A stretch of DNA of 64,000 nucleotides from the NCBI RefSeq assembly GCF_036711975.1, contig NC_091975.1, forward strand, positions 8,558,501-8,622,500. Direction: 5' to 3'. Position numbers and translations under genes: made by a program. Positions 25,201 to 57,585 of the stretch are shown in pieces (within the stretch, counting starts at the first letter, position 1; every line of letters starts with the position of its first letter). The DNA comes from Onthophagus taurus. Lineage: Eukaryota; Arthropoda; Insecta; Coleoptera; Scarabaeidae. The notes under the pieces were generated by a model. It was not told where the DNA came from, did not search any database, and saw only the letters and a program-made list of their open reading frames with translations.

Positions 25201-28200
25201 TTAATCAAGCTGCTGAATTATACATAAATAGGTAGAATGCAACATTTATCAGCAATAACATTTTATTAGCAGATTGTTTCACTTCAGATATCCAGAAAGA
25301 GCGCAACCAAATTCAAAAATTTTTTTGCGAATAAAGCGTAATTTGATCAATTATGGAAGTTTTTTGATGCCCAGGCCAAAAAAATATAATATAAAAAAGT
25401 ATAAATATAAACCCTACGAAGAACAAATAGTTCACCATAATAACAGGCATTGGCATCAAAAAAACCAACATATTATAATTGAGCGAGGTTTTAGCGTGGC
25501 ATGTTTTATTATTGGGCCAAGAATTGTTTACAAAATATTTGAAGGAAACCTTTGCGCTAATCGCTATTTGGCCCTCTTGCAAGAGGCTTTGCCAGAGATT
25601 TTGGATGATATTCCTCTTATTCGGCTAAATAATATTTATTTTCAGCAGGACGGAGCTCCCGCTCATAATGCGTAAGTAGTGAGTCGCTACCTAACTGCAG
25701 AATTTCCTAGTAGGTAGATAAGCACACATGGTCCAACGCGATGGCCAGCAAGATCACTTGATTTATGTATTTTGGACTTCTTTTTATGGGGATATATCAA
25801 GAATCGGGTATATAGTACCCAGAATCGAACAAAATTGGAATTGAAAATTGCTGTAACTGATGCTTTTTCACATTTACAGCAACATCCCATAACTATTCTA
25901 AATGCAATTAAACGCATTACTAAACTTTGTGAACAATGTGTGCATCAAAATGGTAACAACTTTGAACAATTCTTGTAACTTGAAGCCATATTTGCATAAT
26001 GTTTAGTTTTTAATAATTTTTCGTTTTTAGCAAACAAAATTTAATAGATACATTTTTTTAATAAGTCAATAATTAATATTATAGTATTTTCAAAATTCTT
26101 TGTTTATTCTGGTATCCTAGCAACGCGATCACTTAATTTATCATAGCCTACTTATAAAATAATGTGGTTTTTTTAATTTCGAGGTTAATTATAAAGGTAA
26201 GTATAGAGTATTATATATCATTGAAAAGCTTGAAAAAATTCTAGTTCAATAAAAAGATAAAATATAGGTGGTTCCATTTAAAAAAACCTAAGTTGTGTTT
26301 ATAACTCAAAAACCGTGATGTCTAGAAAAATTCTTCGTGCATCATTTCATTCTACGTGAAAAAATCTATTAGAACCCGTTTTTACTTTTTTACTAAGTTT
26401 CCGGATAGCCGAGATACGGGGGGTGTCTGAAAATCGTAAATTTTGAAATACTCCCTGTATATCAAAAACGAAGAGGTCTACGAAAATTTGGTTTGAAATT
26501 TGGACACCCTGTACATTGCTCAGAAAGACCACTTTACCTGCAACGGTTAACAAACTTCTTGCGTTAACTTTGGTACTTTGAGGACATTTGACATAAAACT
26601 TGGTTATATTTCGTTTTATGACATCCAGACTTTAATTGCAAAAAATGGAATTTGAATTCAAAAATTTATCCTCAATTATACCTTATGGGGACACAATCCG
26701 GGGACACACTGTATATTTTCAAATTTTTATTTTGGCCAGAATCCTGTATAATTCTAATGGATGGTCGTCGTGGATGACCTTGTATTATTTACATTATTTA
26801 TAACTTATTACGACAAAATTATACCTACTTATTATTGTTGATACAGAAATATGACAGACATTTTATTATTACATATGGGGAAAACGGTGAACAACTCAAA
26901 AGTATTCATTTTGTTATGCGTAAAAACTATAAATGAATAAAGAATAAATTTTTATAATTTTTTTGATAGTGCGACTATTCTCGCCGGGGTGCGATGTAAT
27001 ATGCTCTTTTGTTGAAAGTGAATGATTAAATTATTAACTTAAGATAGTAAGAACAAAACCGACAATACTTATACAAGCTTAAAACTTCCAAGTTATTAAC
27101 GTGTACCGAATAATATTCAATATACGCACGCTAAACGTGAATTTTTAAGAGTTATTAGTAAGAATTATTTGATTTTTTTTTAATTTAAAATAAAATTGAA
27201 TTGTTTTAGATTGCCAAAAATAATGGAACGGTGACTTTAGCTCATTTCGCTCGCGTTTTAGATTTCCTTGGTATCCTCGTTTCTGCTGATGATTTCACTC
27301 TTTTAGTTAAAAAGTATTTAAAAGATTCGTATACGGTGAATTATGTAGCTTTTGTGGCAGCTGTTGATGCGGCTGCTAATTTTATGGAACAACATGGAAT
27401 GATGGATGTGGGGGGAGTAAGTTGTTTTTGTTATTTGTAAAAAAATTTAATTTGTGTTTATTTTTTAGGATATTTTGAATCAATTTCCTGGCCGGATAAT
27501 CGACGCTGAGCTTCCTAAACTTCCCCGACCTGAAATCGGGAAGATTTTGGCTTCAAGCATTTTTGGGAAACAAAGCATTTTCCATCCGGCGTTAAAAGGA
27601 CCTCGCGTTGATGAAGACTTAATGATGATCATCAAAAGGATTCAAAGGCACGTTTTAGAAAATCGGTTAAGAGTCGGAGAATATTTTAGAGTACCAAAAA
27701 GAAAATGGTTTTCTTTCTAATTAATTTTAATTAATTCAATTTTTAGCATTTCGATGCCTTAAATTGTGGTAAAATAACCATTTCGCAATTTCATCGTGGA
27801 TTGGATGCTTTAGGAATCAGCGGGATTCAGCGATTATTTTTGTCATTGCCTGAAATTCAATCGGTTATGATTCAATATAGGGATCCAATCGATCCGATGA
27901 GGGTTTGTTGGAAAACTTTTGAGAGCGACATCGAGCAAGTTTTTACAGTTAGGGAATTAGAAAAGTTTCCTTGTCTTTGCGTCGAAAGCCCGCCAAGAGA
28001 AATTGAAGAAATGCCTAAAAAAGGGGCTGAAATTTGGAACAACGTTAAAGGAGGATTGCGAGATCTTTGCGAAGAAGCCGTCGAAAAGGTGAAACAAAAA
28101 GTTATGAGGCGAAGAATTTTATTAAAACCCATATTTAGGGATTGCGACAAGTGAGTACTTTTATTGTTTATTCTCTTAATCATTTTGATTGTTTTTAGGC

Positions 28201-29351
28201 ATAACAACGGACATTGTTCTCGCGGTCAAATGCGTCAATGCATCCTTTCAAATGGAATTTTACTCTCCGATGAAGAAGTTTACGCTTTGGAAGCGCGTTA
28301 CAACGACGATATGGGTTTTAATTATTATTGGTTTATGACAGAAATTGAACCAAAACCCTACGAAGGTCCCTTATACACCGGTTTCTTAGCCGAAATGAGA
28401 AAACTTAACGCCCCGCGTAAACCACCACCACCAAATCGAAACGAAAAAGACATCGTGTTAATATTAGCTAAAATAAAAGGAAAAGTGGTTCGAGAACGAA
28501 TCCGTGTCATAGAATTTTTAAGAGATTTCGATCGTTGTAATCAATTGTTAATTAAAAGGGCCGATTTTAAACGTGGCTTAGATTGTTGTCGTTTCGAATT
28601 GACTGAAACTGAAATTGAAACGTTAATGGATGTATTTTCTTCACCGTTAAGGAAGGAGTGTGTTGATTATCTTCGATTTTGTGAAGCTGTTGAAGAAGCT
28701 TTTACTCAATCGTGTTTGGAAAGGGCACCTTTGATAGTTCCTTTGCAGCATATTCCTGTTAAAGATTGCGACAGGAACTTCTTAAACTTTGATGAGAGAT
28801 TAATATTATCGAAAGCTATGCAAAAATTGTCGAAGAAACCCGATTTGCAGATGAATTTGCTCTCTATATTCCAGGTAAACAATATTAAAAATATACAATA
28901 ATATTATTGTGGATATCTTGTTTATCGAAAGGGTCGTAACTTTTAATAAGGGCGCGAAAGTAACGTGAGATTTCGCGGAACCGCCTACGATACTCGGATC
29001 GATTTATCGTAAATATAGGTAGTTTATTTTCCATTCAACAGGTGTACGAGTATTTTTCTATAGTAAATTTCGAAAATAATAAGGAGGATAAGCCCTATAA
29101 ATAAATTTAATTTTCATTTTTTGTTTCTTTTTTAGGATTATGATAGGACAAATTGCGGTACAGTATCTCAGTGTCACTTCTTGAAAGCGCTTTCGATCAG
29201 AGGAATGTACAATTTGATATCGCGCACTGAATTCGATATGATTTGCAAGTGCTTCAGTTACGAACGAGGGATGCGAGATGAAGTGGATTATCGGGCTTTT
29301 ATAAAAGCCTTAGATGTCCTTTACGCTACCGACAAGTACAATCCGTTTTGA
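19300..29351 (+). CDS. EF-hand-like repeat protein, 8 exons
   Basis: Exons 19300-19435, 19538-19684, 19735-19913, 27210-27416, 27469-27690, 27747-28150, 28199-28874 and 29136-29351 join with correct phases to give 728 residues. Repeated modules of the form NNGTVTLAHFARVLDFLGI, LNCGKITISQFHRGL and TNCGTVSQCHFLKALSIRG have the helix-loop-helix pattern of EF-hands, but most loops lack the full set of calcium-binding acids, so calcium binding is doubtful. Similar strings of degenerate EF-hands occur in cilium and sperm proteins such as the EFCAB6 type; this relation is tentative and no symbol is given. Start: first Met, right after the shared promoter region. Introns are 48-102 nt except the last (261 nt) and intron 3, which holds a 7.2-kb transposon nest. 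AATAAA signals follow the TGA. Confidence 0.85.
19914..19923 (+). repeat. Target-site duplication, left copy
   Basis: GTAAGAATTA at the very start of intron 3 is repeated exactly at 27158-27167. This copy supplies the 5' splice site now in use. Confidence 0.7.
19936..19953. repeat. Perfect 18-bp palindrome
   Basis: GTACACGTTAACGTGTAC is its own reverse complement, 12 bp inside the left edge of the composite insertion. It could be a sub-terminal protein-binding site of the outer element. Confidence 0.7.
20160..20410. repeat. TAGTTCTAG element with 54-bp hairpin
   Basis: Member of the family at 2249-2650 in which the central hairpin is replaced by a longer one: arms 20220-20273 and 20302-20355 pair almost perfectly around a 28-nt loop. 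The arms keep the family stem GTGCGTCTTTTAAG and add GACGTTTCGGATGCCATG. Open frames over it (20143-20481) reflect the palindrome, not a gene. Confidence 0.75.
20582..20830. mobile_element. MITE, second copy of the 13170 family
   Basis: Matches 13237-13480, including TACGTCACACTATTTGCCAC, ATATAACCTCTAAAAACAC and ACAACAATGGATGTAGCAG. It has cut into the 3' part of the transposase remnant that ends at about 20830, so it is younger than that remnant. The left end is truncated relative to the 13170 copy. Confidence 0.65.
20830..21488 (-). pseudogene. Tc1/mariner-type transposase (DUF4817 group), broken
   Basis: Two minus-strand frames are pieces of one transposase: 21488-21255 gives the N-terminal helix-turn-helix with YFTRYPERRQPHVRTF, and 21109-20833 gives FNVWCALLDN and YFQYDGAPAHNARVVSEFLN, which contains the second catalytic Asp. 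The first catalytic region is damaged between them, and the C-terminus is cut off by the MITE at 20582-20830. One element end (GGGACACCCTG) is at 22139. Confidence 0.75.
22532..24653. mobile_element. Younger Tc1/mariner-type element with ~270-bp TIRs
   Basis: The ends CAGGGTGATTCATAAGTAAT and ATTACTTATGAATCACCCTG continue as almost perfect inverted repeats for about 270 bp (22532-22803 and 24382-24653). TA duplications are at 22530-22531 and 24654-24655. The other, uninterrupted arm of the host element (near 26210-26225) shows the empty site and confirms the TA duplication. High TIR identity indicates a recent insertion. Confidence 0.9.
23235..24288 (-). pseudogene. Transposase (DUF4817 / Tc1-mariner), one deletion
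   Basis: Frame 24288-23401 runs from MPRHNHFSNEEMRDML through a helix-turn-helix (YREMYPYRRQPNRKIF), ILFTDEATF with the first catalytic Asp, FKINVWCG, and MQDGAPPHFSRAV with the second Asp. At about 23440 it loses the frame; the C-terminal part (WGYMKSMVYAEP to the stop at 23235) continues in the next frame. The segment that should carry the third catalytic Asp (SPDLTPLDF-type motif) is missing, so a deletion of about 35 nt both shifted the frame and removed the active site. Otherwise the gene is nearly complete (about 345 codons). Confidence 0.85.
24735..24983. mobile_element. 249-bp MITE inside the host TIR
   Basis: The ends GACTGCCTAGCCTGACGTCA and TACGTCAAGGCTTAGGTTGTC pair, followed inward by GATGGGCGGAGCTTATATCG and its complement. 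TA flanks both sides (24733-24734 and 24984-24985). It interrupts the left arm of the 22142-26511 element. No coding content. Confidence 0.85.
25134..25978 (+). pseudogene. Transposase of the 22142-26511 element, broken
   Basis: Starts MERYEYYEKYDML at 25134; the frame stops at 25233, yet a 56-nt stretch 25232-25287 has intron form (GTAGAA to CACTTCAG), and its removal restores NRYPERAQPN, matching the related frames. Later parts are YFQQDGAPAHNA (second catalytic Asp, ending at 25675) and MDFFLWGYIKNRVYS (25772) to the stop at 25978. The first catalytic region is deleted near 25410-25490, and a stop and frame change lie around 25674-25770. Same DUF4817-type family as the neighbours but a distinct subgroup. 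Confidence 0.75.
26514..27157. other. Right part of the composite insertion
   Basis: Non-coding. A motif GGGGACACACTGTAT near 26699-26713 resembles another Tc1/mariner end. The sub-terminal inverted repeat of the outer element lies at 27055-27145. Confidence 0.5.
27158..27167 (+). repeat. Target-site duplication, right copy
   Basis: GTAAGAATTA, identical to 19914-19923. The next 42 bp to the AG at 27208-27209 look like the rest of the original short intron. Confidence 0.7.
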
Positions 29352-29639: not shown

Positions 29640-32600
29640 AGAAGACTGAAGTTATATTCTCGTTGACACAAAAGATCTTTAGCTTTAATTTGATACACAT
29701 CTTTATGTTCATAATTATGATGGAATGATTTCTTGAAAATTAACCATTTTGAGTTAACCAGATTTGAAAAGAAGACATCATCAGCTTTAATTTGATACAT
29801 AAATTATTTCTTTATATTCATAAATAATGAAGTTATGATTATTTGAAAATTAACCCATTTTAAGTTGTCAAAAGAACGTCTTCATACTTCTTAATTTTTC
29901 TCGAAACTTTTTTATATAAAGTTTGTTAATATTATACAGGCATCGAAAGGAGACATCTTAAGCTTCAATTTGGTACATAAATTATTTTTTTATATTCATA
30001 AATAATGAAGTTATGATTATTTGAAAATTAACCCATTTTAAGTTGTCAAAACAACATCACCACACTTTTTAATTTTTCTCAAAACTTTTTTATATAAAGT
30101 TTGTTAATATCATATGTGTATCGAAAGAAGACATCTTAAGCTTCAATTTGGTATATAAATCGTTTCTTTATATTCATAAATAATAAAGTTATGATTATTT
30201 CAAAATTAACCACTTTTAAGCTGTCAAAACATCATCGTACTTTTTAATTTTTCTCAAAACTTTTTTATATAATGTTTGTTAATATCATATATGTATCGAA
30301 AGAAGACATCTTAAGCTTCAATTTGGTACATAAATCATTTCTTTATATTCATAAATAAGGAAATTATGATTATTTGAAAATTAACCCATTTTAAGCTGTC
30401 AAAACATCATCGTCCTTTTTAATTTTTCTCAAAACTTTTTTATATAAAGTTTGTTAATATCATACATGTATCGAAAGAAGACATCTTAAGCTTCAATTTG
30501 GTACATAAATCATTTCTTTATATTCATAAATAAGGAAGTTATGATTTCTTGAAAATTAACCCATTTTAAGTTGTCAAAACAACATCATCACACTTTTTAA
30601 TTTTTCTCAAATTTTTTTTATATAAAGTTTGTTAATATCATATATGTATCGAAAGAAGACATCTTAAGCTTCAATTTGGTACATAAATCATTTCTTTATA
30701 TTCATAAATAATAAAGTTACGATTTTTTGAAAATTAACCACTTTTAAGCTGTCAAAACAACATCATCGTACTTTTTAATTTTTCTCAAAACTTTTTTATA
30801 TAAAGTTTGTTAATATCATATATGTATCGAAAGAAGACATCTTAAGCTTCAATTTGGTACATAAATCATTTCTTAGTATTCATAAATAATGAAGTTACGA
30901 TTTTTTGAAAATTAACCACTTTTAAGCTGTCAAAACAACATCATCGTACTTTTTAATTTTTCTCAAAATTTTTTTATATAAAGTTTGTTAATATCATATA
31001 TGTATCGAAAGAAGACATCTTAAGCTTCAATTTGGTACAAAAATCATTTCTTTATATTCATAAATAATGATGTTATGATTTTTTGAAAATTAACCACTTT
31101 TAAGCTGTCAACACATCATCATACTTTTTAATTTTTCTCAAAATTTTTTTATATAAAGTTTGTTAATATCATATATGTATCGAAAGAAGACATCTTAAGC
31201 TTCAATTTGGTATATAAATCATTTCTTTATATTCATAAATAATGAAGTTACGATTTTATGAAAATTAACCACTTTTAAGCTGTCAAAACAACATACTTTT
31301 TAATTTTTCTCAAAATTTTTTTATATAAAGTTTGTTAATATCATATATGTATCGAAAGAAGACATCTTAAGCTTCAATTTGGTACATAAATCATTTCTTT
31401 ATATTCATAAATAAGGAAGTTATGATTTTTTGAAAATTAACCACTTTTAAGCTGTCAAAACAACATCATCGTACTTTTTAATTTTTCTCAAAATTTTTTT
31501 ATATAAAGTTTGTTAATATCATATATGTATCGAAAGAAGACATCTTAAGCTTCAATTTGGTACAAAAATCATTTCTTTATATTCATAAATAATGATGTTA
31601 TGATTTTTTGAAAATTAACCACTTTTAAGCTGTCAACACATCATCATACTTTTTAATTTTTCTCAAAATTTTTTTATATAAAGTTTGTTAATATCATATA
31701 TGTATCGAAAGAAGACATCTTAAGCTTCAATTTGGTATATAAATCATTTCTTTATATTCATAAATAATGAAGTTACGATTTTATGAAAATTAACCACTTT
31801 TAAGCTGTCAAAACAACATACTTTTTAATTTTTCTCAAAATTTTTTTATATAAAGTTTGTTAATATCATATATGTATCGAAAGAAGACATCTTAAGCTTC
31901 AATTTGGTACATAAATCATTTCTTTATATTCATAAATAAGGAAGTTATGATTTCTTGAAAATTAACCCATTTTAAGTTGTCAAAACCACATCATCACACT
32001 TTAATTTTTCTCAAAATCTTTTTATATAAAGTTTGATAATATTATATAGGCATCGAAAGTACACATCTCAAGCTTCAATTTGGTACATAAATCATTTCTT
32101 TATATTCATAAATAATAAAGTTACGATTTTTTGAAAATTAACCACTTTTAAGCTGTCAGAACAACATCATCACACTTTTTAATTTTTCTCAAAACTTTTT
32201 TATATAAAGTTTGTTAATATCATATATGTATCGAAAGAAGACATCTTAAGCTTCAATTTGGTACATAAATCATTTCTTTATATTCATAAATAATGATGTT
32301 ATGATTTTTTGAAAATTAACCACTTTTAAGCTGTCAACACATCATCACACTTTTTAATTTTTCTCAAAATTTTTTTATATAAAGTTTGTTAATATCATAT
32401 ATGTATCGAAAGAAGACATCTTAAGCTTCAATTTGGTACATAAATCATTTCTTTATATTCATAAATAATGATGTTATGATTTTTTGAAAATTAACCACTT
32501 TTAAGCTGCCAAAACAACATCATCACACTTTTTAATTTTTCTCAAAATTTTTTTATATAAAATCTTTTAATACTAAATAGACTACTAAAAAAGACATCGT

Positions 32601-32940
32601 CAGCTTCATTTTGGCACATAAATCATTTCTTTATATTCATAAATAATGAAGTTATGATTTTTTGAAAATTAACCACTTTTAAGCTATCAAAACAACATCA
32701 TCACACTTTTTAATTTTTCTCAAAACTTTTTTATATAAAATCTTCTCATACTAAATAGATTTCTAAAGAAGACATCTTCAGCTTCATTTTGGTACATAAA
32801 TCATTTCTTTATATTCATAAATAATGAAGTTATGATTTTTTGAAAATTAACCACTTTTAAGCTGTCAAAACAACACCATATTTTTTAATTTTTCTCAAAA
32901 CTTTTTTATATAAAATCCATAATCTTTAATTAGCTGTAGT
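29640..32940. repeat. ~177-bp satellite, left array
   Basis: About 18 monomers of 175-178 bp, each containing AGACATCTTAAGCTTCAATT, CATAAATAATGAAGTTATGA and ATTAACCACTTTTAAGCTG. Near 31021-31900 a three-monomer block of about 525 bp is repeated, so there is local higher-order structure. The edge monomers are the most diverged. No open frame is maintained. Confidence 0.93.
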
Positions 32941-34119: not shown

Positions 34120-37100
34120 ATAATTTAAATCACCCAAAATTTAAATTGTCATTTAACTTTTTTATATAAAATTTTTTAATATTATAAAGAAGACATCTTA
34201 AGCTTCAATTTGATACATAGATCAATTCTTTGTATTGATAAATAATGAAGTTATGATTATTTGAAAATTAACCACTTTTAAGATGTCAAAATATGTTCTT
34301 TTGATCATATTTTTTAACTTTTCTCGAATTTTTTTTTGTATAAAATTTTCTAATACTAAATAGACTTCTAAAGAAGACATCTTCAGCTTCATTTTGGTAC
34401 ATAAATCATTTCTTTTTAATCATAAATAATGATGTTATGATTTTTTGAAAATTAACCAGTTTTAAGCTGTCAAAACAACATCATGACAATTTTTAATTTT
34501 TCTCAAAATCTTTTTATATAAAGTTTGTTAATATTATATAGGTATCGAAAGAAGACATCTTAAGCTTCAATTTGATATATAAATCAATTCATTATATTGA
34601 TAAATAATGAAGTTATGATTATTTGAAAATTAACCCCTTTTAACCTGTCAAAATAATGTCATCATACTTTTTAATTTTTCTCGAAACTTTTTTATACAAA
34701 GTTTGTTAATATTATATAGATTTGAAAAGAAGACATCCTCAGCTTCAATTTGATACATAAATCAATTCATTATATTGATAAATAATGAAGTTATGACTAT
34801 TTGAAAATTAACCACTTTTAAGCTGTCAACACATCATCACACTTTTTAGTTTTTCTCAAAATCTTTTTATATAAAGTTTGTTAATATTATATAGGCATCG
34901 AAAGGAGACATCTTCAGCTTCATTTTGGTACATAAATCATTTCTTTATATTCAAAAATAAGGAAGTTATGATTTTTTGAAAATTAACCCATTTTAAGTTG
35001 TCAAAACAACATCATCACACTTTTTAATTTTTCTCAAAATTTTTTTATATAACGTTTGTTAATATTATATAGATTTCAAAAGAAGACATCCTCAGCTTCA
35101 ATTTGATACATAAATCAATTCATTATATTGATAAATAATGAAGTTATGATTATTTGAAAATTAACCCTTTTCAACCTGTCAAAATAATGTCATCATACTT
35201 TTTAATTTTTCTCGAAACTTTTTTATATAAAGTTTATTAATATTATATAGGTATCGAAAGAAGACATCTTAAGCTTCAATTTGATATATAAATCAATTCA
35301 TTTTATTGATAAATAATGAAGTTATGATTATTTGAAAATTAACCCCTTTTAACCTGTCAAAATAATGTCATCATACTTTTTAATTTTTCTCGAAACTTTT
35401 TTATACAAAGTTTGTTAATATTATATAGATTTGAAAAGAAGACATCCTCAGCTTCAATTTGATACATAAATCAATTAATTATATTGATAAATAATGAAGT
35501 TATGATTATTTGCTAATTAACCACTTTTAAGCTGTCAACACATTATCACACTTTTTAGTTTTTCTCAAAAACTTTTTATATAAAGTTTGTTAATATTATA
35601 TAGGCATCGAAAGGAGACATCTTAAGCTTCAATTTCGTACATAAATCATTTCTTTATATTCATAATTAATGAAACTACGATTTTTTGAAAATTAACCACT
35701 TTTAAGCTGTCAAAACATCATCACAATTTTAAGTTTTTCTCAAAATTTTTTTATATAAACTTAGTTAATATTATATAGGTAACGAAAGAAGACATGTTTA
35801 GCTTCAATTTGGTGCATAAATCATTTCTTTATGTTCATAATCAATGAAATTATTGTTTATTGAAAATTAACCACTTTTAAGCTGTCAAATGACTGTCATA
35901 TCTTGTAATTTTTCTCGAAACTTTTTTATATAAAGTTTGTTAATATTATATAGGTATCGAAAGAAGACATCTTAAGCTTCAATTTGATATATAAATCAAT
36001 TCATTATATTGATAAATAATGAAGTTATGATTATTTGAAAATTAACCCCTTTTAACCTGTCAAAATAATGTCACATACTTTTTAATTTTTCTCGAAACTT
36101 TTTTATACAAAGTTTGTTAATATTATATAGATTTAAAAAGAAGACATCCTCAGCTTCAATTTGATACATAAATCAATTCATTATATTGATAAATAATGAA
36201 GTTATGATTATTTGAAAATTAACCACTTTTAAACTGTCAACACATCATCACACTTTTTAGTTTTTCTCAAAATCTTTTTATATAAAGTTTGTTAATATTA
36301 TATAGGCATCGAAAGGAGACATCTGAAGCTTCAATTTGGTACATAAATCATTTCTTTATATTCATAATTAATGAAACTACGATTTTTTGAAAATTAACCA
36401 CTTTTAAGCTGTCAAAACAACATCATCACACTTTTTAATTTTTCTCAAAATTTTTTTATATAAAATCTTCTAATACTAAATAGACTTCTAAAGAAGACAT
36501 CTTCAGCTTCATTTTGGTACATAAATCATTTCTTTATATTCAAAAATAAGGAAGTTATGATTTTTTGAAAATTAACCCATTTTAAGTTGTCAAAACAACA
36601 TCATCACACTTTTTAATTTTTCTCAAAATTTTTTTATATAAAGTTTGTTAATATTATATAGATTTCAAAAGAAGACATCCTCAGCTTCAATTTGATACAT
36701 AAATCAATTCATTATATTGATAAATAATGAAGTTATGATTATTTGAAAATTAACCCTTTTCAACCTGTCAAAATAATGTCATCATACTTTTTAATTTTTC
36801 TCGAAACTTTTTTATATAAAGTTTATTGATATTATATAGGTATCGAAAGAAGACATCTTAAGCTTCAATTTGATATATAAATCAATTCATTATATTGATA
36901 AATAATGAAGTTATGATTATTTGAAAATTAACCCCTTTTAACCTGTCAAAATAATGTCACATACTTTTTAATTTTTCTCGAAACTTTTTTATACAAAGTT
37001 TGTTAATATTATATAGATTTAAAAAGAAGACATCCTCAGCTTCAATTTGATACATAAATCAATTCATTATATTGACAAAATAATGAAGTTATGATTATTT

Positions 37101-38160
37101 GAAAATTAACCACTTTTAAACTGTCAACACATCATCACACTTTTTAGTTTTTCTCAAAATCTTTTTATATAAAGTTTGTTAATATTATATAGGCATCGAA
37201 AGGAGACATCTGAAGCTTCAATTTGGTACATAAATCATTTCTTTATATTCATAATTAATGAAACTACGATTTTTTGAAAATTAACCACTTTTAAGCTGTC
37301 AAAACAACATCATCACACTTTTTAATTTTTCTCAAAATTTTTTTATATAAAATCTTCTAATACTAAATAGACTTCTAAAGAAGACATCTTCAGCTTCATT
37401 TTGGTACATAAATCATTTCTTTATATTCATAAATAATGAAGTTATGATTTTTTGAAAATTAACCACTTTTAAGCTGTCAAAACAACATCATCACACTTTT
37501 TAATTTTTCTCAAAATTTTTTTATATAAAGTTTGTTAATATTATATAGATTTCAAAAGAAGACATCCTCAGCTTCAATTTGATACATAAATCAATTCATT
37601 ATATTGATAAATAATGAAGTTATGATTATTTGAAAATTAACCCTTTTCAACCTGTCAAAATAATGTCATCATACTATTTAATTTTTCTCGAAACTTTTTC
37701 ATATAAAGTTTGTTAATATTATATAGATTTTAAAAGAAGACATCCTCACCTTCAATTTGATACATAAATCAATTCATTATATTGATAAATAATGAAGTTA
37801 TGATTATTTGAAAATTAACCCCTTTTTACCTGTCAAAATAATGTCATCATACTTTTTAATTTTTCTCGAAACTTTTTTATATAAAGTTTGTTAATATTAT
37901 ATAGATTTCAAAAGAAGACATCCTCAGCTTCAATTTGATACATAAATCAATTCATTATATTGATAAATAATGAAGTTATGATTATTTGAAAATTAACCCC
38001 TTTCAACCTGCCAAAATAATGTCATCATACTTTTTAATTTTTCTCGAAACTTTTTTATATAAAGTTTGTTAATATTATATAGATTTTAAAAGAAGACATC
38101 CTCAGCTTCAATTTGATACATAAATTAATTCTTTGTATTGATAAATAAAGAAGTTATTTA
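34120..38160. repeat. ~177-bp satellite, right array
   Basis: About 23 monomers of the same family as 29640-32940, in the same orientation, with two subtypes: one with AAGAAGACATCCTCAGCTTC and GATACATAAATCAATTCATT, the other close to the left array. A block of about 886 bp (five monomers) is repeated (compare 36069 and 36955), showing higher-order copying. The last monomer decays at about 38150, just before the ALG8 3' end. Confidence 0.93.
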
Positions 38161-40207: not shown

Positions 40208-40621
40208 ATGGTAATGCACAGAGCAATAGTAACGTGGTTTATCCTCCTAGTTTTCTTTATACTGCTTTGTTTGCAACTTGAAACTCGAATACATTGGAAT
40301 TGGTTTTTAATTTTCCTACCGTTATGGGTCTATGATGTTATCCTGTTAATTGACGCGTTATTCAATATAATCATACACTGCAAAGATGATATGTTGTGGA
40401 GCATCATCAAAAACAAGAACAACTTATTGGTAATGGTTATTTTATTAAAAATTGCCGCTCAAGTTATGATTTGTCTCAAATTGGAGTACAATAAAACCTT
40501 GGAATTAGAACTTTATCAAGTTTTGGCCCCTTTATGGGTTTTACTACCCATTTTAATAGTTGACGTGACGATTAAGTTATTTAAAGTGTCGAATGGAGAT
40601 TGGACTAGTAGATTGTGTTAA
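40208..40621 (+). CDS. Tmem60: TMEM60 family membrane protein
   Basis: Single-exon gene of 137 residues with four hydrophobic helices (about 8-26, 30-50, 70-92, 102-124). WNWFLIFLPLWVYDVILLID matches the signature of vertebrate TMEM60 (WNWFLIFIPVWIFD-type), and length agrees with the family (about 133). Molecular role is not established. The last ~34 codons and the 3' region are the left edge of a tandem duplication. Poly(A) signal AATAAA at 40708-40713. Confidence 0.9.
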   Translation: MVMHRAIVTWFILLVFFILLCLQLETRIHWNWFLIFLPLWVYDVILLIDALFNIIIHCKDDMLWSIIKNKNNLLVMVILLKIAAQVMICLKLEYNKTLELELYQVLAPLWVLLPILIVDVTIKLFKVSNGDWTSRLC

Positions 40622-40960
40622 ATTTATTAAAAATAAGTGTATTATAATGTAATTTAATGTAGCAAGTTGACCTAACCACCTTCATTGTTATTTATATTTA
40701 TATTAAGAATAAAAATAAAATTAAAACCCTTTTTATTTACTTAATTAATCATTAATAATAATAAATAATTAATACAGATACCTTTATTTCAATCTGACAT
40801 AATGTCAATTTTGACGTAGCTAACTTCATTGTTATTTTCCTTAGTGTAAAATCTAAAACGACATAAATTTTTTTAAAACGTTTTAATTTATGTTTAAACG
40901 CTACTTATCTTATTGATTATGAACTGAGTTTATTATTAATAGTTTTAGATTTGATTAAGA

Positions 40961-41128
40961 ATGGATTGTGGTATAATTTCATTGCGTTTTAACCCGGATC
41001 AAAGCATGTTTATTGCATGCATGGAAGTTTTGGCTCCTGTATGGGTTTTATTACCCATTTTAATAATTGACGTGACGATTAAGTTATTTAAAGTGTCGAA
41101 TGGAGATTGGACTAGTAGATTGTGTTAA
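40961..41128 (+). CDS. Chimeric WDR45-TMEM60 mini-ORF 1
   Basis: 55 residues: the first 22 of WDR45 ([14 protein letters not shown] to ACME) fused in frame to the final TMEM60 helix and tail (VLAPVWVLLPILIID to SRLC). It has its own copy of the WDR45 upstream region and of the TMEM60 poly(A) signal, so it has the parts of a small gene. Whether it is transcribed is unknown; it may be a passive by-product of duplication. Confidence 0.45.
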   Translation: MDCGIISLRFNPDQSMFIACMEVLAPVWVLLPILIIDVTIKLFKVSNGDWTSRLC

Positions 41129-41459
41129 ATTTATTAAAAATAAGTGTATTATAATTTAATGTAGCAAGTTGACCTAACCACCTTCGTTGTTATTTATATT
41201 TATATTAAGAATAAAAATAAAATTAAAACCCTTTTTATTTACTTAATTAATCATTAATAATAATAAATAATTAATACAGATATCTTTATTTCAATTTGAC
41301 ATAATGTCAATTTTGACGTAGCTAACTTCATTATTTTCCTTTGTGTAAAATCTAAAACGACATACATTTTTTTAAAACGTTTTAATTTATGTTTAAACGC
41401 TACTTATCTTATTGATTATGAACTGAGTTTATTATTAATAGTTTTAGATTTGATTAAGA

Positions 41460-41624
41460 ATGGATTGTGGTATAATTTCATTGCGTTTTAACCCGGATCA
41501 AAGCATGTTTATTGCATGCATGGAAGTTTTGGCTCCTTTATGGGTTTTACTACCCATTTTAATAGTTGACGTGACGATTAAGTTATTTAAAGTGTCGAAT
41601 GGAGATTGGACTAATATGTGTTAA
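41460..41624 (+). CDS. Chimeric WDR45-TMEM60 mini-ORF 2
   Basis: 54 residues, the same fusion as at 40961, with the WDR45 part unchanged. A 3-nt difference near the end turns SRLC into NMC without breaking the frame. It carries the same flanking promoter-like and poly(A) sequence. Confidence 0.45.
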   Translation: MDCGIISLRFNPDQSMFIACMEVLAPLWVLLPILIVDVTIKLFKVSNGDWTNMC

Positions 41625-41955
41625 ATTTATTAAAAATAAGTGTTGTATTATTTAATGTAACAAGTTGACCTAACCACCTTCATTGTTATTTATATTTACA
41701 TTAAGAATAAAAATAAAATTAAAACCCTTTTTATTTACTTAATTAATCATTAATAATAATAAATAATTAATACAGATATCTTTATTTCAATTTGACATAA
41801 TGTCAATTTTGACGTAGCTAACTTCATTATTTTCCTTTGTGTAAAATCTAAAACGACATACATTTTTTTAAAACGTTTTAATTTATGTTTAAACGCTACT
41901 TATCTTATTGATTATGAACTGAATTTATTATTAATAGTTTTAGATTTGATTAAAA

Positions 41956-42120
41956 ATGGAATATGGTGTAATTTCATTACGTTTTAACTCGAATCAAAGC
42001 ATGTTTATTGCATGCATGGAGATTTTGGCCCCTTTATGGGTTTTACTACCCATTTTAATAGTTGACGTGACGTTTAAGTTATTTAAAGTGTCGAATGGAG
42101 ATTGGGCTAATATGTGTTAA
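41956..42120 (+). CDS. Chimeric WDR45-TMEM60 mini-ORF 3
   Basis: 54 residues and the most diverged copy (MEYGVISLRFNSNQ, then EILAPLWVLLP), yet still fully open. Several amino-acid changes in the WDR45 part suggest it is not constrained like the parent gene. Confidence 0.4.
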   Translation: MEYGVISLRFNSNQSMFIACMEILAPLWVLLPILIVDVTFKLFKVSNGDWANMC

Positions 42121-42455
42121 ATTTATTAAAAATAAGTGTATTATAATTTAATGTAGCAAGTTAACCTAACCAGCTTCATTGTTATTTATATTTACATTAA
42201 GAATAAAAATAAAATTAAAACCCTTTTTATTTACTTAATTAATCATTAATAATAACAAAATAATTAATACAGATACCTTTATTTAAATCTAACATAATGT
42301 CAATTTTGACGTAGCTAACTTCATTGTTATTTTCTTTTGTGTAAAATCTAAAACGACATAAATTTTTTTAAAACGTTTTAATTTATGTTTAAACGCTACT
42401 TATCTTATTGATTATGAACTGAGTTTATTATTAATGGTTTTAGATTTGATTAAGA

Positions 42456-43639
42456 ATGGATTGTGGTATAATTTCATTGCGTTTTAACCCGGACCAAAGC
42501 ATGTTTATTGCATGCATGGAAAGAGGAATAAAAATATTCAATGTGGAGCCCCTCGTTTTACAGTGCCATTTAGAAACGCGACCTTATGGAACAGCATCGC
42601 AGTGTTACATTTATTCGCGTTCAAACGCGATTATGTACATTCCTGGAGGAAGTAAGCCGAAATTGGGTAAAAATCACGCAATTTTTTATTGTAAGGACCA
42701 GGACAAAGTGGTTGGGGAGCTTAAATTCTCATCGGATGTCGTTGCTGTAAGAATGACGCACAATAGATGTTTAGTGGCTCAAGAAACACAATTGCACATT
42801 TTTACTTTTCCTGATCGGATGAAATTTTTAATTACTTTACCAACTATACAAAACAGGAAGGGATTATTGGAGGTTTCAGCAAGTAGAATGTCGGAGTATC
42901 AAATTGCTGTATTTCCAGGTTTTAAAACAGGAAGTATACAGATTTTGGTATCATAAAAATGTATAAAATTAATCAATTATTAAGTATCATGCGTTTTAGG
43001 ATTTAAATAATATTGAATCGAGTACTTCGAGTGCCCCCGTTTTTATCGCAGCCCATGAAAATCCAATTGCATGTATCGCAATGGATTTACAAGCTACAAA
43101 AATCGCCACCGCTTCAAATAAAGGAACTTTAATAAGAATTTGGGATACACGGACGAGAAATCAACTGTTAGAGTTAAGAAGAGGAACCGATCCTGCTTCA
43201 ATTTATTGGTAATTTAATAATAATAATAAATAAATCAATAAGAAACTTATTTTTTAGTATAAACATAAGCCCCAATTCCGAATTTTTATGTTGTTCGAGC
43301 GATAAAGGCACAGTTCATATTTTTGCAATTAAAGAAACGCATTTTAATAAAAGAATGGGTAACACCTTAAGAATGATTGGGGGGCAATATGGGGAATCGC
43401 AATGGGCATTTGCAAATTTTACATTGCGTTCAGAAAGACCCTGTGTTTGTGGGTTTGGTGAACAAAAATCTGTTTTTGGTATTAATTTAACATAATTAAA
43501 GGAGTAAGTTGATTAAAAGGAATCTTTTTTAGCGATTTGCATGGATGGGGGAATTCATAAATACGTTTTTAACCCTGATAATGGAAGTTGTTCAAGAGAG
43601 GAATACGAAGTTTTTTATCATCACGACATAGAAAAGTAA
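42456..43639 (+). CDS. Wdr45: WDR45 (WIPI4), PI3P-binding autophagy protein
   Basis: Exons 42456-42947, 43000-43208, 43258-43478 and 43533-43639 join to 342 residues. It is a seven-bladed beta-propeller of the PROPPIN family. Diagnostic pieces: SLRFNPDQS at the start, [25 protein letters not shown], the LRRG phosphoinositide-binding motif at 223-226 within [24 protein letters not shown], and [14 protein letters not shown] near the end. The WIPI4 branch (rather than WIPI2 or WIPI3) is indicated by these stretches. Members bind PI3P on forming autophagosomes and work with ATG2. Length is close to human WDR45. Its first 65 bp and upstream region are copied three times on its left. Confidence 0.93.
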
Positions 43640-45149: not shown

Positions 45150-48100
45150 GATTTGCAAAGACTTTTGAAAATTGAAGAGTTAAGATTTTTGATGTTAGAG
45201 ATGCAACTGTTATTTTTATGATCCTTGAAGTATTTCAAAAATTGTTCAAGGATTTTAAAAACTGCTTGTAATATCAAAGAATTTTAGGAATTTATTTGGG
45301 ATATATCTATTTGGGATATTTTCCGAGACTTTTCAAGGATTTTCAAAATGTGTCTGAGATATTTAAAGTTTTTTTACAATTTGAGGGATTTTTTAAGAGA
45401 TGTAGCAGTTAATTTCCAAGGATTTATGGCATTTTCAAATATTATAGAGCATCTTGAAGATTTACAAGAGTTATTAAATTTATTCCAGAATACTTCCGGT
45501 GGAATTTTTTTGAAATTCCTGCGAATTTTCAAGAATTTCCAATGGTGCCTAAGGTTCCTTTTAGAATTTTTGAGGATTATTAAGAGTTTCTAAGCATTTC
45601 TGCATTTTATTGGAGATGAACGTGGTTTTGCAAATACTTTAGCAATACTTCTAAAAATTTATAGTAGATTTCCAGAATATTTCAATTCATTTCCAATGAT
45701 GCTTAAGGTTTTTTTAAAATGCCAAAGCGTTTCTAAGAATTTCTGCATTTCCTTGGAGATAGGTGTGGATTTGCAAACACTTTGGAAGTACTTCTAAAAA
45801 TTTATAGTAGATTTTCAGACTATTTCGATCCATTTCCTAACAGAATTCAAGGATTTTCCAAGATACTTAAGGTTCCTAAAGATTTTTCTAGAATTTTATG
45901 AATTATGAACAAGACTCCTAATGCGTTTCTAAGAATTTCTGCATTTAATTGGAGATGGATGTGGATTTGCAATTGCTCTGGCAGTGTTTCTAAAAATTTA
46001 TAGTACATTTCCAGAATATTTTCATGTTTTTCCTCAAAATTTTCAAGAATTTTCAAAGATGCCCAAAGTTTTTAAACATTCTTGTTAGAATTTTATGAAT
46101 TTTTAAACATTTTAGGAAATTTTCAAGACTCCTAATGCGTTTCTAAGAACGTCTGCATTTAATTGGAGATGGATGTGAATTTGCAATTGCTCTGGCAGTA
46201 TTTCTAAAAATTTATAGCAGATTTCCAGAATATTTTCATGTTTTTCCTCATAATTTTCAAGGATTTTCAAAGATGCCCAAGGTTTCTAAACATTCTTGTT
46301 AGAATTTTATGAATTTTTAAACATTTTAGGAAATTTTCAAGACTCCTAATGCGTTTCTAAGAATTTCTGCATTTAATGGGAGATGGATGTGGATTTGCAA
46401 TGGCTCTGGCAGTATTTCTAAAAATTTATAGCAGATTTCCAGAATATTTTCATGTTTTTCCTCAAAATTTTCAAGGATTTTTAAAGATGCCCAAGGTTTC
46501 TAAACATTCTTGTTAAAATTTTATGAATTTTTAAACATTTTAGGAGATTTTCAAGACTCCTAATGTGTTTCTAAGAATTTCTGCATTTAATGGGAGATGG
46601 ATGTGGATTTGCAATTGCTCTGGCAGTATTTCTAAAAATTTATAGCAGATTTCCAGAATATTTTCATGTTTTTCCTCAAAATTTTCAAGGATTTTCAAAG
46701 ATGCCCAAGGTTTCTAAACATTCTTGTTAGAATTTTATGAATTTTTAAACATTTTAGGAAATTTTCAAGACTCCTAATGCGTTTCTAAGAATTTCTTCAT
46801 TTAATTGGAGATAGATGTGGATTTGCAATTGTTCTGGCAGTATTTTTAAAAATTTATAGCAGATTTCCAGAATATTTTCATGTTTTTCCTCAAAATTTTC
46901 AAGGATTTTCAAAGATGCCCAAGGTTTCTAAACATTCTTGTTAGAATTTTATGAATTTTTAAACATTTTAGGAAATTTTCACGACTCCTAATGCGTTTCT
47001 AAGAATTTCTGCATTTAATTGGAGATGGATGTGGATTTGCAAACACTTTGGGAGTACTTCTAAAAGTTTAAAGTAGATTTCCAGAATATTTTTATCCATT
47101 TTCTAACAGAGTTCAAGAATTTTCCAAGATATTTAAGGTTCCTAAAGATTCTTTTCAGAATTTGATGAATTTTTAATCATTTTAGGAAATTTCCAAGACT
47201 CCCAAAGTGTTCCTAAGAATCTCTGCTTTTTCTTTGAGATGGATGTGGATTTGCAAACACTTTGGCAGTATTTCTAAAAGTTTACAGTAGATTTCCAGAA
47301 TAGTTCAAGCCATTTTCTAAGAAATTTCAAGGACTTCCCAACATACCTAAGGTTCCTGAAGATTCCTTGTAGAATTTGATGTATTTGAATCATTTTAGGA
47401 AATTTCCAAGACTCCCAAAGCGTTCCTAAGAATTTCTGCTTTTTACTGGAGATGAAGATAGATTTGCAAACACTTTGGGAGTACTTCTAAAAGTTTAAAG
47501 TAGATTTCCAGAATATTTTAATCCATTTCCCAACAGAGTTCAAGGATTTTCCAAGATATTTAAGGTTCCTAAAGATTCTTTTCAGAATTTGATGAATTTT
47601 TAATCATTTTAGGAAATTTCCAAGACTCCCAAAGCGTTTCTAAGAATCTCTGCTTTTTCTTGGAGATGGATGTGGATTTGCAAACACTTTGGCAGTATTT
47701 CTAAAAGTTTACAGTATTTCCAGAATAGTTCAAGCCATTTTCTAAGAAATTTCAAGGACTTCCCAACATACCTAAGGTTCCTGAAGATTCCTTGTAGAAT
47801 TTGATGTATTTTTAATCATTTTAGGAAATTTCCAAGACTCCCAAAGCGTTCCTAAGAATTTTTGCTTTTTACTGGAGATGAACGTGGATTTGCAAACACT
47901 TTGGGAGTACTTTTAAAAGTTTATAGCACATTTCCAGAATATTTCAATCTATTTCCTTAGAAATTTCAAAGATTTCCCAACATACCTAAGATTCCTAAAG
48001 ATTCTTTTTAGAATTTGATGAATTTTTAATGATTTTAGGAAATTTCCAAGACTGCCAAAGCGTTTCTAAGAATTTCTGCATTTTATTGGAGATGAATATG

Positions 48101-49830
48101 GATTTGTAAACACTTTGGGACTACTTCTAAAAGTTTAAAGTAGATTTCCAGAATATTTCAATCCATTTCCTAACAGAGTTCAAGAATTTTCCAAGATACT
48201 TAAGGTTCCTAAAGATTCTTTTTAGAATTTGATGAATTTTTAATCATTTTAGGAAATTTCCAAGACTCCCAAAGCGCTCCTAAGAATCTCTGCTTTTTCT
48301 TTGAGATGGATGTGGATTTGTAAACACTTTGGCAGTATTTCTAAAAGTTTACAGTAGATTTCCAGAATAGTTCAAGCCATTTTCTAAGAAATTTCAAGGA
48401 CTTCCCAACATACCTAAGGTTCCTGAAGATTCCTTGTAGAATTTGATGAATTTTTAATCATTTTAGGAAATTTCCAAGACTCCCAAAGCGTTTCTAAGAA
48501 TTTTTGCTTTTTATTGGAGATGAACATGGATTTGCAAACACTTTGGGAGTACTTCTAAAAGTTTAAAGTAGATTTCCAGAATATTTCAATCCATTTCCTA
48601 ACAGAGTTCAAGAATTTTCCAAGATATTTAAGGTTCTTAAAGATTCTTTTCAGAATTTGATGAATTTTTAATCATTTTAGGAAATTTCCAAGACTCCCAA
48701 AGCGCTCCTAAGAATCTCTGCTTTTTCTTTGAGATGGATGTGGATTTGTAAACACTTTGGCAGTATTTCTAAAAGTTTACAGTAGATTTCCAGAATAGTT
48801 CAAGCCATTTTCTAAGAAATTTCAAGGACTTCCCAACATACCTAAGGTTCCTGAAGATTCCTTGTAGAATTTGATGAATTTTTAATCATTTTAGGAAATT
48901 TCCAAGACTCCCAAAGCGTTTCTAAGAATTTTTGCTTTTTATTGGAGATGAACATGGATTTGCAAACACTTTGGGAGTACTTCTAAAAGTTTAAAGTAGA
49001 TTTCCAGAATATTTCAATCCATTTCCTAACAGAGTTCAAGAATTTTCCAAGATATTTAAGGTTCTTAAAGATTCTTTTCAGAATTTGATGAATTTTTAAT
49101 CATTTTAGGAAATTTCCAAGACTCCTAAAGCGTTCCTAAGAATCTCTGCTTTTTCTTGGAGATGGATGTGGATTTGCAAACACTTTGGGAGTATTTCTAA
49201 AAGTTTACAGTAGATTTCCAGAATATTTCAATCCATTTCCTAAGAAATTTCAAGGATTTGCAAAGACTTTGGAAGTATTCAAGAACTTCTAGACTATATT
49301 TAGTAAATTTCCTGAGTGTTTTGAAATATCACCAATGAGTGGTTAAGATGTTTAATATTTTTTAAAAGTTTCTGCAAACACATTTCTGCATTTTATTGCA
49401 GATGGATTTGATTTCCAGAATAATTTAATCCATCTCATGACAAATTTCAAGGTTTTCCAAAGATACCTAAGGTTCCTAAAGATACTTTTTAAAATTTGAT
49501 GAATTTTGAAACATTTTAGGAAATTTCCAAGACTCCCAAAACATTTCTGCATTTTATTGGAGATGGATATGGATTTGCAAACACTTCAAAAAATGTATAG
49601 TAGATTTCCAGAATATTTCAATCCATTTCCTAAAAGATTTCAAAGATTTCCAAGAATGCCTAGAAACCTTAAGATTCTTTTTAGAATTTTCTGATTTTTT
49701 CAGTTTATTTTAAGACTTTTAATAAATTTCGATTAAATCATTTTGGATTTTTGGAATTTACTAGAAGTAGATGTAGATTTACAAGAACGTTGAAACATTT
49801 CCAATAATGCCTAAAGTGTCTAACTAAGAC
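45150..49830. repeat. ~213-bp satellite with dimeric structure
   Basis: About 21 diverged copies with GGAGATGGATGTGGATTTGC recurring every 210-216 bp (for example 45951, 46164, 46379). From about 47220 onward two subtypes alternate (TTTGAGATGGATGTGG and ATTGGAGATGAACATGG), giving a repeat of about 421-426 bp; two such dimers around 48480-49130 are almost identical. Many short frames arise from this repeat and are not genes. Confidence 0.9.
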
Positions 49831-52129: not shown

Positions 52130-55100
52130 TATGTTATAAAAAGAACTGCTCAACCTGGAAACTTTAAATTTGGCATAAACTAAATTCTAACATTGGTTTA
52201 TAACCTCAAAAAGTTTGAAGTTTTAATTCCTAAAAGTTTGGGAGAAACAAAGATTTTTGTGATTATTGCCCAAAAACGACAAATTTAAATTAGAGGTTTT
52301 TCAAGTTCTTATAAAAAGAGCCGCTTAACCTGGAAACTTTAAATTTGGCATAACCTAACCTCTAACATTGATTTATAACCCCAAAAAGTTTCAAGTTTTA
52401 ATTCCTAAAAGTTTGGGAGAAACAAAGTTTTTTTGTGATTATTGTCAAAAACGTCAAATTTAAACCGGCGATTTTGAAAGCTTTTATAAAAAGAACTGCT
52501 CAACCTGGAAACTTTAAATTTTCCATAACATAACCTCTAACACTGATTTATAACCTCACAAAGTTTCAAGTTTTAGTTCCTAAAAGTTTGGGAGAAACAA
52601 AGTTTTCTGTGATTATTGCTTAAAAATGTCAAATTTACGTCAGAGGTTTTAAAAGCTTTTATAAAAAGAACTACTCAACCTGGAAACTTTAAATTTGGCA
52701 TAACCTAACCTCTAACACTGATTTATAACCCCAAAAAAATTCAAGTTTTAATTCCTAAAAGTTTCGGAGTAACAAAGTTTTTTGTGATTATTGCCCAAAA
52801 ACGACAAATTTAAATTGCAGATTTTTAAAGTTCTTACAAAAAGAGCCGCCCAACCTGGTAACTTTAAATTTGGCATAATCTAACGTCTAACGCTAATTTA
52901 TAACCCCAAAAAGTTTCAAGTTTTAAGTCCTAAAAGTTTGGTAGAAACAAAGTTTTTTGTGATTATTGTCAAAAACATCAAATTTAAACCGGCGATTTTG
53001 AAAGCTTTTATAAAAAGAATTGCTCAACCTAGAAACTTTAAATTTGGCATAACCTGACCTCTAACACTGATTTATAACCTCACAAAGTTTCAAGTTTTAG
53101 TTCCTAAAAGTTTGGGAGAAACAAAGTTTTTTGTGATTATTGCTTAAAAATGTCAAATTTAAGTCGGAGGTTTTAAAAGCTTTTATAAAAAGAACTACTC
53201 AACCTGGAAACTTTAGATTTGGTATAACCTAACCTCTAACACTGATTTATAACACCAAAAAAATTCAAGTTTTAATTCCTGAAAGTTTGGGTGAAATAAA
53301 GTTTTTTGTGATTATTGCCCAAAAACGACAAATTTAAATTAGAGGTTTTTAAAGTTCTTATAAAAAGAGCCGCCTAACCTGGTAACTTTAAATTTGGCAT
53401 AACCTAACCTCTAACACTGATTTATAACCCCAAAAAGTTTCAAGTTTTAATTCCTAAAAGTTTGGGAGAAACAAAGTTTTTTGTGATTATTGTCAAAAAC
53501 GTCAAATTTAAACCGGCGATTTCGAAAGCTTTTATGAAAAGAACTGCTCCACCTGGAAACTTTAAATTTGGCATAACCTAACCTCTAACACCGATTTATA
53601 AGCACAAAGAGTTTCAAGTTTCAATTCATAAAAGTTTAGGAGAAACAAAGTTTTTTGTGATTATTGTCAAAAACGTCAAATTTAAACCGGCGATTTTGAA
53701 AGCTTTTATAAAAAGAACTGCTCAATTTGGAAACTTTAAATTTGGCATAACCTAACCTCTAACGCTAATTTATAACCTCAAAAAGTTTCAAGTTTTAATT
53801 CCTAAAAGTTTGGGAGAAACAAAGTTTTTTGTGATTATTGCCCAAAAACGACAAATTTAAATTGCAGATTTTTAAAGTTCTTATAAAAAGAGCCGCCCAA
53901 CTTGGTAACTTTAAATTTGGCATAACCTAACCTCCAACATTAATTTATAACCCCAAAAAATTTCAAGTTTTAATTCCCTAAAGTTTGGGAGTAACAAAGT
54001 TTTTTGTGATTATTGTCAAAAACGTCAAATTTAAACCGGCGATTTTGAAAGCTTTTATAAAAAGAACTGGTCAACCTGGAAACTTTAAATTTGGCATAAC
54101 CTGACCTCTAACACTGATTTATAACCCCAAAAAGTTTCAAGTTTTAAGTCCTAAAAGTTTGGGAGAAACAAAGCTTTTTGTGATTATTGTCAAAAACGTC
54201 AAATTTAAACCGGCGATTTTGAAAGCTTTTATAAAAAGAACTGCTCCACCTGGAAACTTTAAATTTAGCATAACCTAACCTCTAATACTGATTTATAACC
54301 TCAAAAAGTTTCAAGTTTTAATTCCTAAAAGTTTGGGAGAAACAAAGTTTTTTGTGATTATTATCAAAAACGTCAAATTTAAACCGGCGATTTTGAAAGC
54401 TTTTATAAAAAGAACTGCTCAACCTGGAAACTTTAAATTTGGCATAACCTAACCTCCAACATTAATTTATAACCCCAAACAATTTCAAGTTTTAATTCCT
54501 TAAAGTTTGGGAGTAACAAAGTTTTTTGTGATTATTGTCAAAAACGTCAAATTTAAACCGGCGATTTTGAAAGCTTTTATAACAAGAACTGCTCAACCTG
54601 GAAACTTTAAATTTGGCATAACCTAACCTCCAACATTAATTTATAACCCAAAAAAAATTCAAGTTTTAATTCCTAAAAGTTTGGGAGAAACAAAGTTTTT
54701 TGTGATTATTGTCAAAAACGTCAAATTTAAACCGGTGATTTTGAAAGCTTTTATAACAAGAACTGCTCAACCTGGAAACTTTAAATTTAGCATAACCTAA
54801 CCTCTAACACTGATTTATAACCCCAAAAAATTTCAAGTTTTAATTCCTAAAAGTTTGGGAGAAACAAAGTTTTTTGTGATTATTGTCAAAAACGTCAAAT
54901 TTAAACCGGCGATTTTGAAAGCTTTTATAACAAGAACTGCTCAACCTGGAAACTTTAAATTTGGCATAACCTAACCTCTAATACTGATTTATAACCCCAA
55001 AAAATTTCAAGTTTTAATTCCTAAAAGTTTGGGAGAAACAAAGTTTTTTGTGATTATTGTCAAAATCGTCAAATTTAAAAGCTTTTATAAAAAGAACTGC

Positions 55101-55245
55101 TCAACTTGGAAACTTTAAATTTGGTATCACTTAACTTCTAACACTAATTTATAACTCCAAAAAATTTCAAGTTGCAATTTCTAAAAGTTTGGGAGAAACA
55201 AAGTTTTCTGTGATTATTGCCCAAAAACGTCAAATTTAAATATAT
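52130..55245 (+). repeat. ~175-bp satellite upstream of foxo
   Basis: About 18 monomers containing CTCAACCTGGAAACTTTAAA, TAACCTCTAACACTGATTTA, AAGTTTGGGAGAAACAAAG and AAATTTAAACCGGCGATTT. It ends about 1 kb before the foxo start codon and resumes inside foxo intron 1. Confidence 0.93.
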
Positions 55246-56287: not shown

Positions 56288-56662
56288 ATGGACCTTTGGA
56301 CTCCAAATTCTATAATGGACCAAATCGGTGATTTTGAAGGCGGTTTTGAGCCTCAAAGCAGGGCTCGGTGTAACACGTGGCCGTTACCGCGGCCTGAAAA
56401 CTACGTCGAACCGCAGGAGGACGGCAGCGGCAACAAGTTGCCCTCGGGCCTTCCTGTGCCGACTCCGGCGGCCGTTCCTGCTAAGAAAAACTCCAGCAGG
56501 AGAAACGCATGGGGAAACCTCAGCTACGCCGATTTGATTACTCAAGCAATCACTTCAGCAACAGATAAACGTCTCACCCTTTCGCAAATCTACGAGTGGA
56601 TGGTTCAAAACGTGCCCTATTTTAAGGATAAGGGTGATAGTAACTCTTCAGCAGGATGGAAG
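56288..56662 (+). CDS. foxo: foxo, first coding exon (partial gene)
   Basis: 125 codons ending at a donor (GGATGGAAG then GTGAGT) in phase 0. RARCNTWP holds the first Akt/PKB site, Thr30 in R-x-R-x-x-T. The forkhead domain starts at about residue 68 ([20 protein letters not shown]) and runs through [24 protein letters not shown], with the GDSNS insertion special to FOXO, and is cut by the intron at the position used in other FOXO genes. FOXO is the transcription factor that insulin/PI3K/Akt signalling keeps out of the nucleus. The second half of the forkhead and the rest of the protein are not found before 64000, so intron 1 is over 7.3 kb, mostly satellite. Confidence 0.95.
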
Positions 56663-57585
56663 GTGAGTTTCGAAATTTAAACCGGTTTTTTTTTAACTCG
56701 TGTGTTCTCTTTTTCTTTATAATCACCAAAAAAATTTTTTTTGACGTTTCGAAATGTCAAAATGACGTTTCATTTTCTAGATGTCATTTTAAACGTCAAA
56801 ATAAAATTTCTAAATTTTAATTAAAATCGAAAAAGAATTAAATATAAACTTAATTAAGAGTTAATCTCGTTTCTTTGAACAAAACAAATTAGAATTACGT
56901 CATTAACGCACAAAAAATATCAAAAAATATGATAGATAACGTGTTTGTTTGAAATTTACTATGATGTCGTTGATGTGATATGATGCGAGATATGCATAAA
57001 AAGATAAATTTGACTTATAACTACTTTATTTATTTATTTATTTTTTTTTTAAATAAAAAATTTCCATTCAACGTCACCAAAGTCTTAATACATGCTTGGA
57101 ATTGGAGTGATGACGTCGTCTTGAATACGAGATATGCAATCGTGTATTGCATAGTTTCGGATTGATTACACCCAAAAAATGAATTAAATCGATTTATTTT
57201 TTTGCTTTATTGATATTTAAACAAAAGAAAAATAAACAAAAAGGGTTGTATAATTTCATTAACATTTAATGGTCACAATGGTTTTTGGAATTTCGGATCT
57301 CCGTCTCTCTCGGTCTGTGACGTTGCTATTTATTATTATTTTGTTGTGGAGGCATTATGCAAAATCGGATTCAAATGAATGCGTGTCCGGTACGATGTAG
57401 AAAAATCCGCTGCTGAATATTAATTTTCGCCAATTCTGTTTTTAATATTTATATTCCTTATAAATAGAAAAGTGTGCATGCATAAACAAAGTGGACGCGC
57501 TTTTATCCTTCTCATAAAGCCGAATTAAATTTTTCAAAAATGAGTTAATACCATACTAAGGTACTGGGAGCAACTATTTTAATTG
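56663..57585 (+). other. Start of foxo intron 1, unique part
   Basis: No coding sequence. 56738-56802 contains several inverted TTGACGTTT and AAACGTCAA motifs that could form a hairpin. The rest is AT-rich. Confidence 0.5.

Follow-up and report, generated by a model that had tools for sequence, protein, structure and literature searches.

A known route to the origin of new genes is the formation of chimeric genes by tandem duplication, and the closest described systems are from Drosophila. In D. melanogaster, a report on Sdic (PMC7475035) describes a chimera of the two adjacent genes sw and AnxB10 that is tandemly repeated, having undergone later tandem expansion and gene conversion among its copies. 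For D. yakuba, a survey (PMC5460883) covers 76 tandem-duplication chimeras in 15 lines, with RNA-seq data, and reports that 24 of the 76 have increased expression in one or more tissues. Here we describe a locus of this kind in the beetle Onthophagus taurus, within a stretch of 64,000 nucleotides ("the window"; contig NC_091975.1, positions 8,558,501 to 8,622,500). Between a TMEM60-type gene and a WDR45/WIPI4 gene lies a tandem array containing three short reading frames, in each of which the start of WDR45 is fused to the end of TMEM60.

The locus has the features of a tandem-duplication chimera: its parents are adjacent and intact, the 5' part of one gene is joined to the 3' part of the other, there has been expansion to four units (U1 to U4) with exchange between U2 and U3, and an open frame runs through all three junctions. 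It is like Sdic in being a chimera of neighboring genes, but its unit is only about 500 bp long, its parents are TMEM60 and WDR45, its junction is direct without evident later deletions, and it is known from sequence alone. Whereas the D. yakuba survey deals with many chimeras in many lines, here there is one array of four units, diverged by several percent, in one assembly. A literature search for a TMEM60-WDR45 chimeric gene found no report. We consider it probable that this is a chimeric locus made by tandem duplication and putatively expressed, which persists as a near-neutral by-product and in which an in-frame junction was amplified and then partly homogenized.

A tandem array between two intact genes

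Tandem Repeats Finder reports an array at positions 40518-42521 of the window, with a period of 496 bp, 4.0 copies and 95% matches. A repeat search likewise found four in-register copies of about 500 bp which, when cut at the junction, span 40520-42521 on the forward strand. The first unit, U1 (40520-41026, 507 bp), consists of the 3' part of TMEM60, which lies within the parent gene, followed by the intergenic DNA and codons 1-22 of WDR45. U2 (41027-41525) is 499 bp long, U3 (41526-42021) is 496 bp long, and U4 (42022-42521) is 500 bp long, its WDR45 part falling within the intact parent. Matches to AATAAA number three in each of U1, U2 and U3, and two in U4. An earlier sequence-only reading of this DNA had proposed units of about 500 bp carrying WDR45 upstream DNA, 22 WDR45 codons and the TMEM60 3' region with AATAAA, and this anatomy is borne out. 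Its count of three is correct for the fusions, but the number of units is four.

The upstream parent (40208-40621, forward strand) is a single open reading frame (ORF) of 137 amino acids with four hydrophobic segments by hydropathy. It matches the Pfam family PF10269 (Tmemb_185A; E = 2.3e-7, 31.2 bits against a cut-off of 23.1), so the name TMEM60 given to it previously holds at family level only; its length agrees with that of the short human TMEM60. For the downstream parent (42456-43639, forward strand) we predicted four exons by eye, at 42456-42947, 43000-43208, 43258-43478 and 43533-43639. All three introns are of the GT...AG form, and joining the exons gives an open frame of 342 amino acids. 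Among solved structures, its predicted product matches WIPI4 best (query residues 4-336, E = 9.4e-93), ahead of WIPI3 (2.2e-63) and WIPI2 (9.6e-22), and it also matches the PROPPIN family PF21032 (E = 2.4e-24). Judged by these matches, WIPI4 is the nearest of the three to the downstream parent, whose identification as WDR45 stands, as does the claim that the parents at both ends are intact. Upstream of the array, on the opposite strand, there is an ALG6/ALG8-type gene, of which two ORFs were tested.

We searched the 291-Mb genome assembly with DNA and protein queries, the counts being lower bounds. The unit matched at least four overlapping places, all of them inside the array. Outside the locus there was one WDR45-like match, on contig C5 (26% identity, E = 2.5e-7), which is possibly a paralog, and two further matches, on contigs C11 and C16, had E-values of about 0.23. 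In a scan of the window for RNA families we found one snoRNA, and none inside the array.

In noncoding DNA the units differ pairwise by between 5/331 and 16/331 (1.5-4.8%; 331-334 alignment columns), and they also have distinct indels. The array is therefore not newly formed, nor is it obviously an error of assembly. Tandem arrays are prone to misassembly and, according to the Sdic report, a fraction of long-read assemblies misrepresent that region (PMC7475035). However, the differences and indels seen between these units are not what duplicated reads from a single copy would produce, and the array spans just 2 kb of a window that contains no N (G+C content 30%). We therefore regard the wrongful expansion of a single copy during assembly as extremely unlikely.

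Three fusion reading frames, probably from one junction

The three fusion ORFs, all on the forward strand, are F1 (40961-41128, 55 amino acids), F2 (41460-41624, 54 amino acids) and F3 (41956-42120, 54 amino acids), of which F3 is the most diverged. The starts and the open lengths of 54-55 residues proposed for them earlier are thus confirmed. At all three inner junctions, codon 22 of WDR45 leads in frame, and in one register, into the last of the hydrophobic segments of TMEM60, and the frame through the junction is open in every case. The breakpoints are at codon 105 of TMEM60 and after codon 22 of WDR45. Because the three junctions keep one register, a single junction event is the simplest account of them. 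Breakpoints placed at random in two genes on the same strand give an in-frame junction in one case out of three, and if one junction was copied by amplification then the three in-frame fusions count once, and the surprise is that of a single 1-in-3 outcome. We considered whether the F3 junction, whose two junction bases are not those of F1 and F2, could have arisen independently; given its shared register, one origin followed by two substitutions is simpler.

Comparing the flanks by eye, we found that the parents share only about 2 bp (AA) at the founding breakpoint, and for this reason homologous unequal exchange does not seem to have been the founding step. The proposal that the fusions were born from unequal exchange between neighboring genes therefore suits the later amplification but not the founding duplication, with its microhomology of about 2 bp. 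U2 and U3 have 19 substitutions between them but are identical across 227 alignment columns. When the 19 substitutions were placed at random, a tract this long arose in 15 of 100,000 placements (0.0001 in a separate run of 20,000 placements). We tested all six pairs of units for long identical tracts, the values being uncorrected for this number, and the other five pairs were not significant. The tract is a sign of exchange between U2 and U3, whether by conversion or by unequal crossing-over. In the order of events that we propose, a tandem duplication with its ends in TMEM60 (codon 105) and WDR45 (after codon 22) would by chance have created an in-frame fusion. The array would then have grown to four units by unequal crossing-over, and its units would have become partly homogenized through exchange with one another.

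Potential for expression

From the TMEM60 stop codon to the next WDR45 start codon there are 331-339 bp in each case, and because this is all that separates them, every unit holds the whole of the intergenic DNA. AATAAA matches lie downstream of each fusion. Since the units carry the entire intergenic DNA together with these matches, it is plausible that the fusions are transcribed at some level: each probably has a copied promoter and polyadenylation signal, and so would probably yield some transcript. The fusion starts have an A at position -3 and an in-frame stop codon just upstream. There are upstream ATGs in the intergenic DNA, ahead of the true WDR45 and of the fusions alike, and no TATA-like match was seen in the two intergenic copies, out of four, that were scanned.

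The complete intergenic DNA in each unit would also suit a different role, in which the array acts as DNA, its extra copies of the WDR45 upstream and TMEM60 3' regions altering the expression of one or both parents. The small number of noncoding differences between units (5-16 of 331-334 columns) could be taken in the same way, but recency can explain this low divergence and, for U2 and U3, so can exchange. We judge such a role very unlikely.

The fusion peptides contain a single hydrophobic stretch each, in which the Kyte-Doolittle mean over 19 residues peaks at 2.39-2.43. The hydrophobic window starts at residue 18, in the last WDR45 residues, and extends into the TMEM60 segment. This hydropathy supports a putative membrane segment. 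A Pfam search assigned none of the three peptides to a family. The locus had been called a complete recipe for one-helix membrane proteins, and on hydropathy this is fair as a statement of potential, but the substitutions described below give no clear sign that the peptides are maintained.

Tests for selection on the fusion peptides

We counted replacement and silent differences between each fusion and the joined parental sequence, where a replacement is a difference in a codon that encodes another residue. Differences on the parental side are included, and the last few codons, which hold a 3-bp indel, are excluded. The ratios of replacement to silent differences are 2/3 for F1, 0/2 for F2 and 9/2 for F3. 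Summed over the three fusions there are 11 replacement and 7 silent differences, or 61% replacement, compared to 72% expected under a neutral model of random mutation with assumed mutation biases (P = 0.21 for 11 or fewer). Between fusions, the corresponding ratios are 10/4 (F1-F3), 8/3 (F2-F3) and 2/1 (F1-F2). All of these comparisons are compatible with neutrality, and the smallest P-value for any one fusion is that of F2 (0.077). We also simulated neutral fusions with 5, 2 and 11 changes, treated as independent, and asked how often all three stayed open for at least 50 codons. They did so in 0.27 of simulations with substitutions only, and in 0.13 when frame-breaking indels were added at the noncoding rate, which comes from two hand-entered events.

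These results bear on the possibility that the fusions are a functional new family, that is, three one-helix membrane micropeptides kept by selection, which might, for example, use the last helix that they share with TMEM60 to act on that protein or on its partners. That all three ORFs are open, with the start context noted above, would fit such a family, as would the hydropathy, the small number of replacements that separate F1 and F2 from the joined parental sequence (2 and 0), and the persistence of the array for some time, as seen in its noncoding divergence of 1.5-4.8%. But the replacement and silent counts fit neutrality, openness without selection is expected 13-27% of the time, and in F3 there are 9 base differences in residue-changing codons against 2 silent ones. 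We think a functional family unlikely. A more elaborate version, in which a young family of three translated one-helix micropeptides was born in frame in one step and is under selection, its DNA being homogenized while the N-terminus of F3 diverges adaptively, strikes us as distinctly unlikely. The adaptive hotspot in F3 that it would draw on was a candidate that we dropped, as follows. In the WDR45 part of U3, private changes occupy 7/66 columns compared to 6/331 in noncoding DNA (p = 0.002), but once the homogenized tract is removed the comparison becomes 7/66 to 6/108 (p = 0.24), and because of this rise we do not take the hotspot as evidence.

Near-neutral persistence is the most economical account of these data, although several points weigh against it. 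Purifying selection would give the same counts as those seen in F2 (0 replacement and 2 silent, P = 0.077) and F1 (2 and 3, P = 0.135), numbers that are tiny; three open frames without a frameshift are weakly suggestive of constraint, given the chance of 0.13-0.27; and positive selection could give the excess of private changes in U3 as first counted. In D. yakuba, according to the survey (PMC5460883), chimeras are found at lower frequencies than duplications of whole genes, which suggests that their effects are mostly detrimental, and signs of selection are likelier in them. Near-neutrality is thus only one of the outcomes to be expected for such loci. Taken at face value, the sequence holds no clear sign that the three fusions have any function, and the peptides of 54-55 amino acids are most likely outside detectable selection; they would be material from which a gene could arise, not a gene already established.

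Repeat-rich surroundings

Eight arrays with a period above 100 bp, including the fusion array, cover 23,107 of the 64,000 bases of the window (36%), so local tandem amplification is common around the locus. The fusion array includes gene ends. A 178-bp satellite family forms two arrays (29768-32914 and 34186-38157) that are about 1.3 kb apart and 88% alike in their best match. A 174-bp family forms three (52134-55240, 57661-61912 and 63086-64000), with best matches of 89-91%, the last of them in opposite orientation to its two relatives. The remaining two arrays have units of 349 bp (6167-8519, 6.7 copies) and 214 bp (45910-49266, 15.7 copies), and neither matched any other array in the window by blastn at 1e-5.

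Three ORFs in the window (23401-24288, 20705-21109 and 25274-25675) resemble pieces of Tc1/mariner-type transposases. The first matches helix-turn-helix families, DUF4817 above its cut-off and HTH_32 below it, and neither of the others has a Pfam match. Between two satellite arrays, the ORF at 56288-56680 encodes the beginning of a forkhead domain (PF00250, E = 4.1e-12), which is presumably FOXO-like. An ORF of 245 amino acids with a TTG start (28164-28901) had no Pfam match at 0.001.

Significance

The locus is a compact snapshot of the birth of a chimeric gene, in which the parents are intact, each copy has the full intergenic DNA, and one junction is present in several copies that can be compared with each other. 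If the fusions are translated, the early steps from a duplication accident to a membrane micropeptide would be directly testable here, and if they are not, the array would provide a neutral baseline for such loci.
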